A stretch of DNA of 64,000 nucleotides. Source: Ruania zhangjianzhongii. GTDB lineage: Bacteria; Actinomycetota; Actinomycetes; Actinomycetales; Beutenbergiaceae. This document shows, in pieces, positions 18,536 through 25,664 of the stretch. Location of the stretch: positions 2,346,882 to 2,410,881 of the forward strand of contig NZ_CP042828.1 in the NCBI RefSeq assembly GCF_008000995.1, in the 5' to 3' direction. Both the position numbers and the translations under genes were made by a program. The notes below the pieces were generated by a model, which was given only the letters and a program-made list of their open reading frames with translations, ran no database searches and had not been told where the DNA came from. The first letter of the stretch is position 1; every line of letters starts with the position of its first letter.

Positions 18536-19855
18536 ATGACCGCAGATCTGGCCATCATCAACGCCACCATCGTGCCGATGACCGGCGGAGCGCCCATCGA
18601 GAACGGGGTGCTGACCGTCCGCGACGGCAGGATCGAAGAAGTTGGCACGGCCACGACAAGACCAGAGGCGACCCGCACGATCGACGCCGCTGGCTGCGCG
18701 GTCATCCCCGGGCTGGTCAACTCCCACACCCACAACGCCTCGAACATGCTGCTGCGCAGCCTGGACGAGGACGTGGAGCTCTGGCAGTGGCTGCGCTCGA
18801 TGTGGGCGATGAAGCGCAACTTCGACCCGGAGACCCTGTACTGGGCCAGCCTGTGCGGCCTGATCGAGATGGCCCGTGGCGGGATCACCTGCTTCAACGA
18901 GCACTTCGACGCCTACGCCGTGGAACCGGAGGTGCGGGCCCTCGAAGAGGTGCCCCTGCGTGCCACCCTCGGTTACGGGTTCGCCGACCGCGGCGTGTAC
19001 GAGTCGATCACGGACTGGTCCTGGCGCACCCTGGACAGCTTCGGCGAGAAGGTGGCCCGCCATCATGGCCGGGCCGAGGGCCGGATCCAGGTGGCGCTCT
19101 CCCCGCATGCGCCCTACTCGGTGGGCGCCCAGATGTGGCAGCTGGCCGCCACAGTGGCCGAGCAGCACGATCTGACCACGCACACGCACGTCGCCGAGGG
19201 GATGAACGAGGTGCGGTACATGGCCGAGGAGTACGGCACCACCACGGTGCAGTGGCTCGACTCGCTCGGGGTGCTCTCCTCGCGCGTCACTGCGGCACAC
19301 TGCACCCGCCTGAACGCCCGGGACATCGAGATCCTCGCCGACCGGGACGTGAAGATCGCGCACTGCCCGATCTCGAACGCCAAGCTCGTGTCCGGAACGA
19401 TGGACCTGGGCGCGGTCACCGAGGCGGGGATCACCGTCGGGCTGGCCACAGATGGTCCGGCCAGCCACAACACGATGGACATGTTCGAAGAGATGAAGTT
19501 CGCCGGGCTGATCCACAAGGACCGGACCCAGGAGCCCACCTTCCTGCCCGCCGGGCAGATCCTCGAACTGGCCACCGCCGGCTCAGCTGCTGCCATGCAC
19601 CGCCCCGAGCTCGGCCGGCTGGTGCCCGGCGCGCCGGCGGACATCACCGTCGTCGACCTGGACCGCCCGCACACCCTGCCCGCCTATAACGCCGTCTCCA
19701 CACTGGTCTACTCCAGCCGTGCTGATGACGTCCGATACACGATCGTGGCCGGCCGGGTGGTGCTGGACGACGGCGCAGTGGCGGGTCTCGATGAACGTCA
19801 CGTCCGCAAGACCTTCCGTGAGCATGCCCTGGCGCTACGCGCCAGGAGCCTGTGA
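18536..19855 (+). CDS. Amidohydrolase-superfamily deaminase (ATZ/TRZ/guanine deaminase-like)
   Basis: This 439-residue metal-dependent hydrolase shows the metal His pair in VNSHTHNAS near residue 63, the barrel His of LSPHAPYSVG, the metal His in THTHVAEG, HCTRLNARD, the catalytic region AHCPISNAKL, and the metal Asp in ATDGPASHNT. These marks fit the ATZ/TRZ-type group, whose members deaminate guanine, 8-oxoguanine, adenosine derivatives or s-triazines. It is coupled to an NCS2 purine/pyrimidine permease 29 bases downstream and is divergent from lysR. This points to a nucleobase deaminase. The exact base is not determined. Confidence 0.87.
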   Translation: MTADLAIINATIVPMTGGAPIENGVLTVRDGRIEEVGTATTRPEATRTIDAAGCAVIPGLVNSHTHNASNMLLRSLDEDVELWQWLRSMWAMKRNFDPETLYWASLCGLIEMARGGITCFNEHFDAYAVEPEVRALEEVPLRATLGYGFADRGVYESITDWSWRTLDSFGEKVARHHGRAEGRIQVALSPHAPYSVGAQMWQLAATVAEQHDLTTHTHVAEGMNEVRYMAEEYGTTTVQWLDSLGVLSSRVTAAHCTRLNARDIEILADRDVKIAHCPISNAKLVSGTMDLGAVTEAGITVGLATDGPASHNTMDMFEEMKFAGLIHKDRTQEPTFLPAGQILELATAGSAAAMHRPELGRLVPGAPADITVVDLDRPHTLPAYNAVSTLVYSSRADDVRYTIVAGRVVLDDGAVAGLDERHVRKTFREHALALRARSL

Positions 19856-19884
19856 CCTGACCCTCTGACCACAATGGAGTGAGC

Positions 19885-21336
19885 ATGTCCGAGACCACAA
19901 CCACGACCCCGGTCAAGTCGGAGGTCGACAGCCGCCCGACGATGGTGCGCACGGTGCTGCTGGGCGCCCAGCACCTGCTGGCGATGTACGCCTCGATCGC
20001 TGCTACGCCGCTTGCTCTGGCCGTTGCCCTGGATGTGCCCCAGGACCAGCTGATCTACCTGCTCACGGTGACCGCGCTGATGAGCGGTGTGGCCACGCTG
20101 ATCCAGTCCATCGGGTTCTGGAAGATCGGGGCCAGGCTGCCGCTGGTGCAGGGCACCACGTTCACGGCAGTGGCGCCGATGATCCTCATCGGCAGCGAGT
20201 GGGGCTGGCCGGCGATCTTCGGCTCGACGATCGCCGCGGGGCTGATCGCCCTGATCATCGCCCCGTTCTTCTCCCGACTGTTGTTCCTGTTTCCACCAGT
20301 GGTGACCGGCACGACGATCGCGGCGGTGGGGATCTCGCTGCTGCCGATCTCGTTGATGTGGATCAACGGGGGCGACCCGACCCGAGAGACGCTCTCCCTG
20401 CCGGATCTCGGCCTGGCCGGGATCACCATCCTCACCATCCTGCTGGTGACCAAGCTGTCGAAGGGCTTCCTCGGCCGGGTGGCGGTGATGGTCGGGCTCG
20501 TGGTGGGCACGATCGTGGCCGCGATCCTCGGCCGGCTGGACCTGTCTCCGGTGGGCTCGGCGCCCTGGGTGGAGATCGTGCAGCCGTTCGAGTTCGGCTT
20601 GCCGACGTTCCCTCTCTCCGCGGTGTTCGCGATGACGCTGGTGATGATCATCTCGATGGTGGAGACCACCTCCGATGTGCTGGCGATCGGAGAGATCACC
20701 GAGACCAAGGTGGACCGGAAGCGGATCGCCGCTGCGATCCGCGCCGACGGTCTCGCCACCGCGTTGGGTGGGGTCTTCAATGCGTTCCCGTTTACTGCGT
20801 ACGCCCAGAACGTCAGCCTGGTGCAGCTCACCCGGATCAAGAGCCGGTGGGTGATCGCCGCCGCTGGTGGGTTGCTGGTGGTGATCGGGCTGTTGCCGAA
20901 GGTCAGTGCCGTGGTGGCCTCCATCCCGATGGCGGTGCTCGGCGGGGGAGCGCTGGTGCTCTTCGGTGGTGTGGCCGCAGTCGGGATCAAGATCCTCGGC
21001 AAGGCCGACCTGGAGGACGCCGGCAACCTGATCATCGTCGCCGTAAGCATGGGGCTGGCGATGATGCCGGTGGCGATGCCGACCGTGTTCGCCGACCTAC
21101 CCTCCGGCGTGCGCATCGTGGCGGAGAACAGCATCGTGCTCGCCTGTGTCAGTGCCATCGTGCTGAACGTGCTGTTCAACGTGATCGGCCGAGGTAGAGG
21201 TGCCGGAAAGGTGCCCGCCGAGGGCGCCGATCCCAGTACCGACGATCCCAGTACCGACGGGCCCCGTGCAGACGAGCCCCGTGCAGATGGGCCCCGTACC
21301 GACGGGCCCAGCGACGAGGTCCACTCCCGCGCCTGA
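19885..21336 (+). CDS. NCS2-family (NAT) uracil/xanthine-type permease
   Basis: This 483-residue nucleobase permease has about fourteen hydrophobic segments. The ATG at 19885 is preferred over GTG 19879 because GGAG at 19876-19879 fits it. Visible marks are the QHLLAMYA start of TM1, the QGTTFTAVAPMI segment, and the transport-domain stretch NAFPFTAYAQNVSLVQLT, where NAT proteins hold their signature region. The last 40 residues are a hydrophilic Asp/Pro/Arg repeat tail. It works with the deaminase upstream in nucleobase uptake and breakdown. Confidence 0.9.
   Translation: MSETTTTTPVKSEVDSRPTMVRTVLLGAQHLLAMYASIAATPLALAVALDVPQDQLIYLLTVTALMSGVATLIQSIGFWKIGARLPLVQGTTFTAVAPMILIGSEWGWPAIFGSTIAAGLIALIIAPFFSRLLFLFPPVVTGTTIAAVGISLLPISLMWINGGDPTRETLSLPDLGLAGITILTILLVTKLSKGFLGRVAVMVGLVVGTIVAAILGRLDLSPVGSAPWVEIVQPFEFGLPTFPLSAVFAMTLVMIISMVETTSDVLAIGEITETKVDRKRIAAAIRADGLATALGGVFNAFPFTAYAQNVSLVQLTRIKSRWVIAAAGGLLVVIGLLPKVSAVVASIPMAVLGGGALVLFGGVAAVGIKILGKADLEDAGNLIIVAVSMGLAMMPVAMPTVFADLPSGVRIVAENSIVLACVSAIVLNVLFNVIGRGRGAGKVPAEGADPSTDDPSTDGPRADEPRADGPRTDGPSDEVHSRA
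21229..21303 (+). repeat. Five tandem 15-bp units encoding the permease C-terminal tail
   Basis: Units begin at 21229, 21244, 21259, 21274 and 21289. The first two are identical (GATCCCAGTACCGAC) and the later ones are diverged forms starting GGGCCCC or GAGCCCC. Each encodes a pentapeptide of the type D/G-P-S/R-T/A-D. The frame is kept, so unit number can change without disrupting the permease. Confidence 0.85.
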
Positions 21337-21400: not shown

Positions 21401-22384
21401 TCAGCCGAGCGCCGCGGCGACCCTGCGCAGCCCGTCCGGGGCGGTGATGTCCTCACCGAGCAGCGGCACCTCGGCCAGGGGCAGGTCCGGGAGGCGGTCA
21501 GTGACGTAGCGGATGTGCTCGCTCTCCTGAGCGCGGCGCTGCACGAGCAGCGCACCGGCGTCGGCAGGGGAGCGCCGGTTCACCACCAGGGCGCTCACCG
21601 CGAGACCGGACTCCCGGAGCTGTGCGGCTAGCTCGACGGTCTCCAACGCAGGCAGGCGCTCGCCCAGGAGCACGGCGACGAACGCCGTCTGCTCGTGGTC
21701 TCGCAGCAGGTCACGCAGCCGGGTGAAGCGTTCCTGGCGGGCCAGCAACACGCTGCGGATCTCGGCGTCCCGTGCGCCTCGCGAGCCCTCGTCTCCGGAG
21801 ATGGTCCGGTAGGCCGGGTCCTCCTCGTCCAGGCTGCGGATGGCGTCGGTGAACCGCTGCGCGCGGCTGTGCCGGTCCAGCATCCCCTGGGTCCAGGCGG
21901 ACATCGTCTCCGGCAGGGACACCAGTCGGGCGGTGTGCCCGGAGGGTGCGGTGTCGAAGACGATCAGGTCGAAGTGGTCCAGCTGTTCGGTCACCGTGAC
22001 GGCGATGCGTTCCAGGATCGCTGCCTCGAACGCGCCCGGGGCGTTCTTGGCCAGTCGGAGGTGCTTGCTGACCTCGGCGTGCAGATGGTCGGGCACCAAC
22101 CGCTCCAGCCGCTCACCCACCTGCGCCAGATGCTCAGCCGTGGCGCGCTCCGGGTCGATCTCCAGCCCGCAGAGCCGGTCCGGGCCGAGCGCCGTGATCT
22201 CATCGCCGACCCGGCGGTCCCACAGGTGCCCGAGATTGTGCGCCGGGTCCGTGGAGACCACCAGCACCCGCTGCCCGGCCTTGGCTCGGGCGAGTGCGAT
22301 CGTGGAGGCGATCACGGTTTTGCCCACTCCGCCCTTGCCGCCGACGAACAGCAGCCGCCGCTGACCGGCCAGGCTCAGCAGCAC
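21401..22384 (-). CDS. ArsA/Get3-family ATPase
   Basis: This 327-residue soluble P-loop ATPase has the deviant Walker A GGKGGVGKT at residues 15-23, the switch motif STDPAH, and the FDTAPSGHT motif of ArsA/Get3. It is a single-domain form, unlike the doubled ArsA of arsenite pumps. It starts at a GTG that lies inside the last codons of the upstream small gene, an overlap of ten bases. No arsenic genes are nearby. Its partners are a small Cys-Cys-ended protein and CstA, so a role in assembling or regulating that membrane system is inferred. Confidence 0.87.
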   Translation of the reverse strand: MLLSLAGQRRLLFVGGKGGVGKTVIASTIALARAKAGQRVLVVSTDPAHNLGHLWDRRVGDEITALGPDRLCGLEIDPERATAEHLAQVGERLERLVPDHLHAEVSKHLRLAKNAPGAFEAAILERIAVTVTEQLDHFDLIVFDTAPSGHTARLVSLPETMSAWTQGMLDRHSRAQRFTDAIRSLDEEDPAYRTISGDEGSRGARDAEIRSVLLARQERFTRLRDLLRDHEQTAFVAVLLGERLPALETVELAAQLRESGLAVSALVVNRRSPADAGALLVQRRAQESEHIRYVTDRLPDLPLAEVPLLGEDITAPDGLRRVAAALG

Positions 22385-22653
22385 GCCACGGTCTCCAGCG
22401 GGGAGGTCTGCATCCCCATCCTGCGGTGCCAGTCGTGGAAGCGTTCGTAGACCACCGGCAGCAGCTCGATCGTGTAGTAGCTCACCGGGTTCGGCACGCC
22501 CAGCGACTCAGCGAGCACCACGATCATGAAGAGATCCTCCTCGTCCCGCCGGGCCCGGGCGAACGTGCGCCGGTACGGGGCGACGTAGAACTCCCGCAGC
22601 CCCCGGGCCAGCCGCTGCAGCGGTCCGTCGGGATCGCGGACCTCCTCAGTCAC
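22375..22653 (-). CDS. Small conserved protein ending in Cys-Cys (cory-CC-star type)
   Basis: This is a 92-residue soluble protein with a GTG start that overlaps the cstA stop by eight bases. It has the blocks FYVAPYRRTFARARRDEEDLF, ESLGVPNPVSYYTIELLP and FHDWHRRMGM, and ends exactly in ETVACC. I recall a corynebacterial family named cory-CC-star for this ending; the match is from memory. It replaces YbdD, the small partner usually found next to cstA in enteric bacteria. The C-terminal cysteine pair could bind metal or form a disulfide. Its function is unknown. Confidence 0.78.
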   Translation of the reverse strand: MTEEVRDPDGPLQRLARGLREFYVAPYRRTFARARRDEEDLFMIVVLAESLGVPNPVSYYTIELLPVVYERFHDWHRRMGMQTSPLETVACC

Positions 22654-24352
22654 GGTGCTCGCCCACCTCCGCGGGATCGGACGAGGCGTCCTCGGGTTCC
22701 GGCGGAGACTTGCGCGCCCGCCCGATCGCCCGGCCGGCCGCCACGATCACCCACAGCGAGGCGATCAGGATGACCAGATCCATCACGAACAGCAGCCAGT
22801 TCTGTTCCTCGTAGAACTGGCCCAGCTGGACGACCAGGGCGTAGAGGGTCATCACGGTGACGAACACCATCGGCACCACCACCGGCGTGACCCGGCGCCG
22901 CTTGCGTATCAGCATCACCGCGAGGATGGACAGCGTCAGCGCGGCGAGGAGCTGGTTCGTGGTGCCGAACAGTGGCCAGATCACCATGCCGCCGGAACCG
23001 TCGGCACCGGCGCCGAAGCACAGCCCGATACCGAGCACCAGCACCACGAGCGTGGCCACGAACTTGCCGATCTTCAGCCCGGCCAGCTCACCGGCTTCCT
23101 GAACCACGAACCGCTGCAGCCGAACCCCGGTGTCCATCGTGGTGGCGGCGAACAGCACGGCCATCGTGGCCAGGATGGTGGCACTGAGCGAGGTGGGAAG
23201 CCCCAGCCCGCTGTTCACGATGTTTCCGCCTCCTTCGACGAACGCCGCTACGCCGCCCTCGTTGAACGCGGAGTAGACCGCCTCCCAGTCGGCCAGTGTC
23301 CGGAAGCCGGCGGTGGTCGCGATGATCGCACCCAGGGCGAGCAGGCCTTCACCCACGGCACCGAAGTAGCCGACGAACCTGGCGTCGGTCTCCTTGTCCA
23401 GCTGCTTGGAGCTGGTGCCGGAGGAAACCATGCCGTGGAACCCGGAGATCGCACCACAGGCGATGGTGACGAACAGCAGCGGGACGATGCTGGGTGTCCC
23501 CGCGGGCACCGCCTCGTTCCAGGCGGGGGCGACCATGGTCGGGGTGGCGATCAGGACGCTGCCGTAGAGGATCGCCAACCCGACGAACAGCTGCAGACCG
23601 TTGATGTAGTCCCGGGGCTGGAGCAGTACCCACACCGGCAGCATCGACGCCACCCCGGCGTAGAGGAACAGCACGACCACCCAGAACGCGTTGGCGGACA
23701 GGCCGAGCACGGTCTCCGGCAGCTCCACCGGAACCTGGTTACCGAGCACGATCAGCGCGTACAGCGCCGCCACCCCCACGATCGAGACCGCGATCAGGTT
23801 CCACTTGAACCGGTAGATCGCCTGACCCACGCCCAGTGCCACGACGAGGGCGCCCCAGGTGGGGATGACCGCCGTCGGCGTGGTGACCAGCAGATCGGAG
23901 ATGACCACGGCGAACGCGGCGTTCACCATCAGCAGCAGCAGGAAGATCACCACGAGGAACAGGTTCCGGCCCTGTTTGCCGATGTAACGCCCGGATAGGG
24001 TGCCGATCGACTGTCCCTTGTGCCGCACCGAGGCCCAGAGCGCGCCGAGATCATGCATCCCGGCGAAGAACACCGTGCCGAGGGTGACCCAGAGGAACGC
24101 CGGCAGCCAGCCCCAGATCACCGCGACCGCGGGGCCGACGATCGGCGCCGCACCGGCCACCGAGGTGAAGTGGTGCCCCCAGAGGATGAACTTATTCGTC
24201 GGAACGAAGTCCACCCCGTCGCGCTGGGTGTGCGCCGGGGTCTTGAACGTGGCGTCCAGACGGTAGAGACGTGTGGCCAGGAATTTCGAGTACAGGGCGT
24301 ACCCGAGGGCCATCATGGCGATTCCGATCACGGCCAGAATGAGCGAGTTCAC
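22646..24352 (-). CDS. cstA: CstA-family pyruvate/peptide transporter
   Basis: This is a large membrane protein of about 568 residues with many hydrophobic segments. The CstA signature blocks are VPTNKFILWGHHFTSVAGA near the N-terminus, PRDYINGLQLF, and GFHGMVSSGTSSKQL. GTG 24352 is preferred because GGGAG lies five bases ahead; an ATG at 24370 without such a site is the alternative. E. coli CstA and its relative BtsT import pyruvate, and CstA was first linked to peptide use in starvation. It is shorter at the N-terminus than the E. coli protein. It heads an overlapping three-gene unit with the CC-ended protein and the ArsA-type ATPase. Confidence 0.87.
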   Translation of the reverse strand: MNSLILAVIGIAMMALGYALYSKFLATRLYRLDATFKTPAHTQRDGVDFVPTNKFILWGHHFTSVAGAAPIVGPAVAVIWGWLPAFLWVTLGTVFFAGMHDLGALWASVRHKGQSIGTLSGRYIGKQGRNLFLVVIFLLLLMVNAAFAVVISDLLVTTPTAVIPTWGALVVALGVGQAIYRFKWNLIAVSIVGVAALYALIVLGNQVPVELPETVLGLSANAFWVVVLFLYAGVASMLPVWVLLQPRDYINGLQLFVGLAILYGSVLIATPTMVAPAWNEAVPAGTPSIVPLLFVTIACGAISGFHGMVSSGTSSKQLDKETDARFVGYFGAVGEGLLALGAIIATTAGFRTLADWEAVYSAFNEGGVAAFVEGGGNIVNSGLGLPTSLSATILATMAVLFAATTMDTGVRLQRFVVQEAGELAGLKIGKFVATLVVLVLGIGLCFGAGADGSGGMVIWPLFGTTNQLLAALTLSILAVMLIRKRRRVTPVVVPMVFVTVMTLYALVVQLGQFYEEQNWLLFVMDLVILIASLWVIVAAGRAIGRARKSPPEPEDASSDPAEVGEHRD

Positions 24353-24515
24353 GGCGGCTCCCATCCGCATGATGTGCGGCAGTGCCCCGGAGCCGTCAGG
24401 CCCCCCTGCGTGCGCCGGCCGCGCTGCCGAATCTCGTTGCCGGTGACGCTAGCAGAGCGCCGGGGGAGCGGCACGTCGGATCGCCGCACGACCTCCTGTT
24501 GGGTTCGGATGAATC

Positions 24516-24569
24516 TGCTTATGCGTATTGACACCGTTCGAATCGCACGTATGCTTATGGGCATAAGCA
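24516..24569 (+). promoter_or_regulatory. LacI-type operator region with 18-bp palindrome and upstream half site
   Basis: TGCTTATG-GG-CATAAGCA at 24552-24569 is a palindrome apart from its two central bases. TGCTTATG recurs at 24516-24523, 36 bases upstream. Both lie just before the lacI gene at 24603, in an AT-richer patch with TTGACA at 24529-24534. Negative autoregulation with two sites is the likely arrangement. Confidence 0.6.
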
Positions 24570-24602
24570 GCAAGGATGATGCCGAGATCTGGAAGGGCAG
24601 CA

Positions 24603-25664
24603 ATGGCGCAGAGCAAGAGTCAGCCGGGCGCGTCTCGCACGCGTCAGGCAGACGTCGCCAAAGCTGCGGGCGTCTCCCAGGCGACCGTCTCCATGGTGCT
24701 GTCCGGCCGGAAGTCCACGCGGATCTCCGAGGAAACCCGGCAGCGCATTCTCGGCCTCAGCGGATCGCTGGGTTACAGCGCGAACCCCGCTGCACGCAGC
24801 CTCGCGGGCGGGAAGAACCGCATCCTCGGCGTCTTCACCTACGAGCCGACCTTCCCGATCGCCGGGCTGGACCAGTACTACCCGTTCCTGCTCGGTATCG
24901 AGTCCGAGGCGGAACGGCTGCAGCAGAACCTGCTGCTTTTCACCAGTGCGAGCTCCGGCGGCGCCGGCAGCCCGCGGAGCATCTACGCAGGCAGCGTCAA
25001 CCAGCTCGGTATCGCTGACGGCAGCATCCTGCTCGGTCGTGGTGAGGACCGCGATGAGGTCGCGCGGCTGTCGAAGGAGGGCTACCCCTTCGTCTACATC
25101 GGTCGCCGTGAGATCAAGAATGCGAGGATCTCCTGGGTCACCGCGGACTACGAGAGCGCCACCTACGAGGTGATGACCCGGTTGGCCGAGCTCGGGCACC
25201 GGAAGCTCTTCTACGTCGGCGTGCCCGTTCCGGAAGAGCCCAACCTCGATCGATTCGCCGGCTGGCAACGCGCCCTCGACGATCACGGCATGACTGGCTC
25301 GGTGGATCGCTCCGCCGACGGCGCTGATCTGGAGGCGGAGCTCGGCGCGCAGATCAACGCCGGTGCCACCGCGATCATCGTGGAGACGCCGGAGAACGGT
25401 GCGCGGGTGTTCCGCGTGATCAAGAAGCTCGGACTGGACGTGCCGGGCGAGGTTTCCGTGGCCGTGCTGGGTGACATGGCAATACCCCGCGGCCGGAAGC
25501 AGTCCTGGTCCGGTTTCGACATGCCGTTCGGTGACATCGGTGCTGAAGCGGTCCGACTGCTGGTGGAGCTGATCTCCGACCGCACGGCAGGTCCGCGCAC
25601 CTTGAAGCTGCCCTGCACCGCGCGCCCCGGCCGCACGATCGGCCGTCCGCCTGCCCGGCGCTGA
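24603..25664 (+). CDS. LacI-family transcriptional regulator
   Basis: This 353-residue regulator starts at ATG 24603 after GGAAGGG. The helix-turn-helix (QADVAKAAGVSQATVSMVLSG) and hinge (AARSLAGG) precede a periplasmic-binding-like ligand domain. It leads the FAD-oxidoreductase and peptide-type importer genes, with 80 bases in between, and has palindromic sites directly upstream. Its inducer is probably the sugar or glycoside imported by that transporter. Confidence 0.88.
   Translation: MAQSKSQPGASRTRQADVAKAAGVSQATVSMVLSGRKSTRISEETRQRILGLSGSLGYSANPAARSLAGGKNRILGVFTYEPTFPIAGLDQYYPFLLGIESEAERLQQNLLLFTSASSGGAGSPRSIYAGSVNQLGIADGSILLGRGEDRDEVARLSKEGYPFVYIGRREIKNARISWVTADYESATYEVMTRLAELGHRKLFYVGVPVPEEPNLDRFAGWQRALDDHGMTGSVDRSADGADLEAELGAQINAGATAIIVETPENGARVFRVIKKLGLDVPGEVSVAVLGDMAIPRGRKQSWSGFDMPFGDIGAEAVRLLVELISDRTAGPRTLKLPCTARPGRTIGRPPARR

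Follow-up and report, generated by a model that had tools for sequence, protein, structure and literature searches.

In Escherichia coli, two transporters of the CstA family share a gene layout in which the transporter is followed by a small protein ending in two cysteines (Cys-Cys, hereafter CC), namely CstA with YbdD and BtsT with YjiX; in btsT-yjiX-yjiA a gene for a P-loop nucleoside triphosphatase (NTPase), YjiA, stands third. According to the accessible text of PMC5847655, pyruvate uptake falls to about the same extent when either ybdD or cstA is lost, and uptake in the ybdD cstA double mutant is no worse than in the single mutants. Proteins of the DUF466 family in Campylobacterales end in cysteine-selenocysteine (Cys-Sec), and the available part of PMC4607533 has their authors proposing a redox activity for them. 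Here we analyse a unit of the same general layout in a 64,000-nucleotide stretch of the Ruania zhangjianzhongii chromosome (NZ_CP042828.1, positions 2,346,882 to 2,410,881; the whole stretch is called the window). The unit encodes a short-type CstA-family transporter, a small protein of the family that NCBI names cory-CC-star (Cory below) and an ATPase related to Get3 and ArsA, in this order on the minus strand, as read from the open reading frames of the window:

22646..24352, minus strand: cstA, short-type CstA-family transporter (PF02554, 448 bits against a cut-off of 27), inside the cory-linked short CstA clade
22375..22653, minus strand: small cory-CC-star gene, 92 amino acids, ending in Cys-Cys (ACC) (NF041419, 129.9 bits against a cut-off of 80)
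21401..22384, minus strand: Get3/ArsA-family ATPase gene, single domain, 327 amino acids (TIGR00345, 198 bits against a cut-off of 135)
22646..22653, minus strand: 8-base overlap of cstA and the small gene, from the reading-frame coordinates
22375..22384, minus strand: 10-base overlap of the small gene and the ATPase gene, from the reading-frame coordinates; the CC codons lie inside the ATPase start
22426..22437, minus strand: HDWH, residues 73-76 of the small protein (H73, W75 and H76 near-invariant in the alignment)
22378..22383, minus strand: terminal Cys91-Cys92 of the small protein (CC in 73 of 73 loci)
22316..22342, minus strand: Walker A motif of the ATPase, GGKGGVGKT, residues 15-23 (G16, K17, G18, G19, G21 and K22 invariant in the alignment)

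The coordinates agree with the overlaps of 8 and 10 bases from which tightly linked expression had originally been proposed. The longest reading frame of cstA begins at ATG 24370; the alternative GTG at 24352, preceded by GGGAG and coinciding with the point where the alignment to relatives begins (an offset of 6), is a plausible start.

The explanation that we favour, at a probability of roughly 0.45, is that the three genes make up one transporter module, in which the small protein would be an accessory subunit and the ATPase would load or install it. The proposal draws directly on well-supported observations, namely the linkage and order of the genes, their co-occurrence with one CstA clade, the His/Cys signature of Cory and the Get3 fold of the ATPase. 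With the window small protein as query, a scan of the genomes of 84,980 species, which retrieves close relatives only, gave 73 loci. The ATPase gene adjoins cory on the 3' side in 72 of these, the sole exception (L038) being cut by a contig end, and cstA lies directly ahead of cory in 59. The order of the three genes is found again in numerous genera belonging to four phyla, and in 43 of the 72 loci exactly 33 nucleotides separate the small gene's stop from the P-loop of the ATPase; the arrangement is therefore not due to chance. CstA and the ATPase both flank cory at all 19 Campylobacterota loci, at both loci of a gammaproteobacterial sample and at all three plasmid loci examined (six plasmid records matched). 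In the phylum of the window (Actinomycetota), the ATPase follows cory at 16 of 16 loci and CstA is present at 11; at the remaining five the flanks are short or the contig ends. Thus the tight three-gene unit of the original prediction, with a small protein in the place of YbdD beside cstA, is a widely kept arrangement. That prediction had called for a neighbourhood survey beforehand and had named rare adjacency as the outcome that would speak against it; the recurrent adjacency is clearly in its favour.

Fourteen of the 73 loci lack cstA directly ahead of cory. One of them, L056, begins at the edge of its contig; the other 13 are gammaproteobacterial loci of the Pseudohongiella type. In 12 of the latter (L011, L012, L014, L015, L019, L021, L023, L027, L038, L039, L042 and L045) the upstream gene resembles a sodium:neurotransmitter symporter and is followed by small ratA- and rnfH-type genes, assignments checked with Pfam for L011 and L012 only; the 13th (L048) is too near a contig end to show such a gene. 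In these genomes the cory-ATPase pair might conceivably also serve a protein of the sodium:neurotransmitter symporter family as a second transporter. A short CstA is encoded elsewhere in the genome in all seven tested of the 13 genomes in which cory-ATPase stands apart from cstA, and beside these unlinked short cstA genes no CC-ended partner gene in the same orientation was found in the seven genomes. A 55-codon CC-ended reading frame beside one unlinked short cstA (L087) is taken as chance. A Cytobacillus plasmid carries an additional 95-codon gene between cstA and cory (L219:4675-4962), with no family match.

Which small protein accompanies a CstA depends on the kind of CstA. The window protein belongs to a different clade from E. 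coli CstA, to which it is 30% identical over 582 columns, and against the equivalog model of the pyruvate symporter CstA (PRK15015) it scores 214.7 bits, far below the cut-off of 1188. Pyruvate, the substrate originally proposed, is thus not supported for this transporter. Among 149 genomes of the phylum of the window, 36 encode CstA, 14 Cory (11 over the cut-off) and 13 a YbdD-family protein (PF04328); every genome with Cory or YbdD is one of the 36, and none of the 149 has both. The hypergeometric chances of this pattern are 2e-10 (Cory within CstA), 1e-9 and 2e-4, figures that treat genomes as independent and ignore kinship. Gammaproteobacteria (143 genomes of the class to which genome G012 belongs) give a similar picture, with CstA in 20, YbdD in 12, Cory in 2 and the two small proteins together in none. 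In the phylum of the window, long CstA goes with YbdD (13 of 13 genomes) and short CstA with Cory (14 of 14). A tree of 69 CstA proteins (167 rows, reduced to 141 when partial or duplicate rows were dropped and to 69 at 78% identity) places 21 of the 22 YbdD-linked rows in one well-supported group, the remaining row being a contig fragment; a separate group of 41 contains 38 Cory-type rows. The grouping was unchanged in a second tree that left out six long-branch rows. At two Cory-type loci whose small proteins lack CC, CstA falls outside both groups, on long branches.

A strict rule of one small protein per genome was considered and rejected, since three Pseudohongiella-type genomes carry both systems, a long CstA with YbdD and a short CstA with Cory. 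Their presence side by side shows that pairing goes by CstA class, not by genome, and the type of small protein follows the CstA clade rather than the organism. This bears on the view that the three genes share regulation only, being co-expressed on carbon starvation with no physical interaction between their products. Overlapping genes of one transcription unit need not encode interacting proteins, and cory-ATPase is not beside cstA at 13 of the 73 loci; however, the pairing tracks the CstA clade, holds across phyla and holds when the genes are unlinked, so that we regard mere co-regulation as very unlikely. YbdD-family genes, too, can stand apart from cstA, as seen for L211 and L212 in G188 (on another contig) and in G296 (far away).

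By its profile score the small protein belongs fully to the cory-CC-star family, and it matches neither Pfam nor KCU-star. All 73 loci encode a CC end, and H73, W75, H76 and C91 are near-invariant in the Cory alignment. Among 100 distinct members of the Cory family, the 96 with a CC end invariably show an HxxH motif near the end of helix 2, while all four CC-less homologs lack both histidines. We considered whether CC could be a by-product of the overlapping ATPase start, as TGC TGC TGA contains CTG CTG. Homologs with a wider gap before the ATPase start rule this out: CC is kept in 22 of 22 of them, with TGT and TGC codons mixed, which argues that selection acts on the protein. In Campylobacterota (298 genomes, 19 with Cory; C-termini read for a subset of loci) the tails that were read end in CC, CxCC or CxCCC followed by an ordinary stop, extra cysteines being frequent (L225-L238); in L222 and L227 the tail is followed by TGA, read as a stop. 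The AlphaFold2 model (mean predicted local distance difference test score, pLDDT, 86.9) consists of two helices, residues 11-47 and 58-78, and a flexible tail bearing the CC pair. No transmembrane segment was found in Cory, the best 19-residue window having a mean hydropathy of 1.35. A fold search of the model in the PDB returned no match, which is no sign of a new fold because a two-helix hairpin is a poor query, and a sequence search of the PDB gave weak, chance-like matches only. A direct link between the CC tail and the invariant Cys305 of CstA was considered and set aside, as this cysteine is also present in most CstAs that have no small partner.

A variant arrangement occurs in two genomes of the same phylum, G046 and G049, where CstA is followed by two Cory-like genes lacking both CC and HxWH (L204, L205; also L104-L108). 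The genes for Get3-like ATPases are likewise paired, at L205 in G049 and on another contig (L106) in G046; it looks as if the module may have become hetero-oligomeric there.

The YbdD family resembles Cory in its C-terminal Cys tail, its two conserved histidines and its cstA neighbour. All 40 distinct YbdD-family sequences have a cysteine within the last three residues, 33 end in CC, and the two histidines are nearly invariant. The CC end is accordingly no departure from YbdD, as had been supposed at the outset, for the same ending is found in E. coli YbdD and YjiX. In sequence the two families appear unrelated: their profile comparison with hhalign gives a probability of about 1%, against 99-100% for halves of the Cory family and 93-97% for the CC-less pair, used as controls. 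The likeness thus appears to be one of role, not of descent; shared ancestry is undetected, though proteins this short may nonetheless have a common descent. The NCBI label KCU-star denotes the DUF466/PF04328 family, which E. coli YbdD and YjiX match below the cut-off. Its members, like Cory, are small proteins beside CstA with a C-terminal Cys pair and two histidines; in contrast to Cory, for which neither a Sec form nor a sequence relation to this family was found, they are known with Sec. One YbdD-type plasmid member is labelled by NCBI as 'CstA-like transporter-associated (seleno)protein', which indicates that the association of the YbdD family with CstA is already recognised there. The third gene differs between the systems, being a Get3-like ATPase in the cory unit and the YjiA GTPase at E. 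coli btsT. A general rule that such small proteins always go with an NTPase of the SIMIBI class was tried and rejected: among the loci examined a YjiA-like gene occurs only in E. coli and Rahnella (1 of 10 plasmid loci), in a survey in which most loci had flanks of 1.5 kb only.

The co-variation of His and Cys suggests a thiol/metal or redox site. One could imagine a redox switch in which the terminal Cys pair gates the transporter, or reports on it, through thiol/disulfide exchange, with the ATPase merely acting as a chaperone of Cory. The Cys-Sec ends of Campylobacterales DUF466 proteins, and the redox activity proposed for them, lend this some weight, given that DUF466 is the very family called KCU-star, to which YbdD and YjiX show a sub-threshold match. 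On the other hand, two histidines co-vary with CC, many Campylobacterota tails (CxCC or CxCCC) look more like metal binding, and none of the Campylobacterota cory genes read had a clear Sec codon. A pure redox switch therefore seems doubtful to us.

The ATPase belongs to the Get3 family, passing TIGR00345 and also PF02374. Its structural model (mean pLDDT 92.9) is best matched among solved structures by archaeal TRC40 (3zq6; Z score 32.6, root-mean-square deviation 2.2, 279 residues aligned), followed by eukaryotic Get3 and the halves of ArsA; with archaeal TRC40 and yeast Get3 it shares the fold, the Walker A motif and the switch motifs. A match to mad8 in a library of defence genes was weak (19.7 bits) and was ignored. 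The genome of the window has one Get3-family gene, and in five of six other genomes tested the single such gene over the cut-off is the Cory-linked copy.

The fold, extending over the whole length of the ATPase, and the polytopic membrane protein encoded by the first gene of the unit would fit a Get3-type role, with the ATPase bringing CstA or Cory to the membrane in the way that Get3 handles tail-anchored proteins. However, in contrast to Get3/TRC40, the window ATPase lacks the CxxC zinc motif that most, though not all, Get3 proteins carry at the dimer interface, present in only 1 of 119 sequences of a P-loop-filtered set (the accessible part of PMC10248533 describes the motif as not essential in all Get3 proteins), and it appears to lack a clearly hydrophobic client insert: the insert region, residues 184-200, is short, with a hydrophilic mean hydropathy of -1.14. 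It is also encoded in one unit with a small soluble protein and a transporter. No transmembrane segment was detected in Cory, and CstA is not tail-anchored. Membrane insertion of this type is thus unlikely.

An ArsA-family ATPase adjoining a membrane transporter also recalls arsenite efflux, in which the ATPase would energise CstA as a pump. ArsA comprises two fused ATPase domains in 540-594 amino acids, whereas the window protein is a single domain, and its score against the ArsA equivalog is 134.9 bits with a cut-off of 650. We also compared the positions of what we take to be the conserved metalloid-binding cysteines of ArsA. In a profile alignment, the stretch GACTTE of E. coli ArsA corresponds to PGTEEA-like sequences in the cory-linked ATPases, and the alignment of 119 ATPases contains no conserved Cys column, the commonest having cysteine in 29. 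No arsB, arsR or arsD was found among the genes typed around the ATPase gene in the window, so the original description of a Get3-like ATPase with no arsenic genes stands. CstA is, according to the accessible part of PMC10862720, a family of secondary transporters with the LeuT fold. An arsenite-type pump is scarcely credible.

We return to the transporter module with an ATP-dependent accessory subunit. In this mechanism, the short-type CstA would be the membrane transporter and Cory a soluble two-helix accessory subunit, acting on short CstA as YbdD does on long CstA; the role of Cory as a CstA subunit would follow by analogy with the genetics of ybdD in E. coli. The two histidines of HxWH and the C-terminal Cys pair would together form the site of Cory, most likely a thiol/metal and possibly a redox site. 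Since the ATPase is present at practically every cory locus, ATP-driven loading or placement of Cory suggests itself: a dedicated Get3-like ATPase would bind Cory and spend ATP either on loading the site or on positioning the subunit at the transporter. The earlier idea of transporter assembly or redox/metal control thus remains, we infer, the best one. More broadly and more tentatively, two small-protein families may separately have come to serve two CstA clades with the same signature of two histidines and a Cys tail, in which case an added thiol/metal (or Cys/Sec) site would be a requirement of transport by CstA and, in the Cory class, a bacterial relative of Get3 would act as the dedicated ATP-driven loader of that site.

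Several observations weigh against this explanation. Three members of the short CstA group (L168, L169 and L170) and several further CstAs have no small partner, which means that CstA does not always need one. The Cory-type genes of G046 and G049 lack CC and HxWH, yet keep their CstA and ATPase neighbours; the His/Cys site is therefore not required in every version of the module. The four CC-less sequences are close kin, so that their loss of both features may have been a single event. No Sec form of Cory was seen among the Campylobacterota C-termini read. Finally, Get3-family genes over the cut-off occur in 64 of the 149 genomes of the phylum of the window.

The surroundings of the unit in the window include genes typed as a xanthine permease, an amidohydrolase, LysR, LacI, a flavin adenine dinucleotide (FAD) oxidoreductase and a peptide/nickel-type ATP-binding cassette (ABC) binding protein. 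A LacI-type regulator gene (24576-25664, plus strand) is divergent from cstA, and the region between the two contains a perfect palindrome, TGCTTATG-CATAAGCA, together with a third arm (24552-24569, 24515-24524), a possible operator for the control of cstA. Just past the ATPase gene, on the opposite strand (18536-21336, plus), a deaminase-type amidohydrolase and a xanthine permease are probably a pair for purine use.

The small family already has a name at NCBI, NF041419, which states no function. No paper on the name 'cory-CC-star' was found, nor any joining CstA with 'ArsA family ATPase' or combining Get3, ArsA and carbon starvation, in a search outside which most subscription papers lie. 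In the literature covered the module is thus undescribed, its small family being already named. We rate the cory module as sharing the CstA-YbdD layout, with a different small protein and with a Get3-like ATPase in addition.

How YbdD contributes to pyruvate uptake by E. coli CstA has been a standing question since 2018, and Cory bears on it: a second partner, unrelated in sequence and carrying the same His/Cys signature, points to the key residues and to the tail as the functional part. If our explanation is true, it would provide a client and a pathway for one class of bacterial Get3-like ATPases and would connect metal or redox chemistry with a family of transporters. The role of a loader would, in turn, put the Get3 fold to a purpose other than inserting tail-anchored proteins or exporting arsenite. 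Taken together, the company that one class of CstA keeps with Cory and a Get3-like ATPase, in many bacteria that are only distantly related, points to a mechanism, so far undescribed, by which energy would be spent on activating a transporter or on its assembly.

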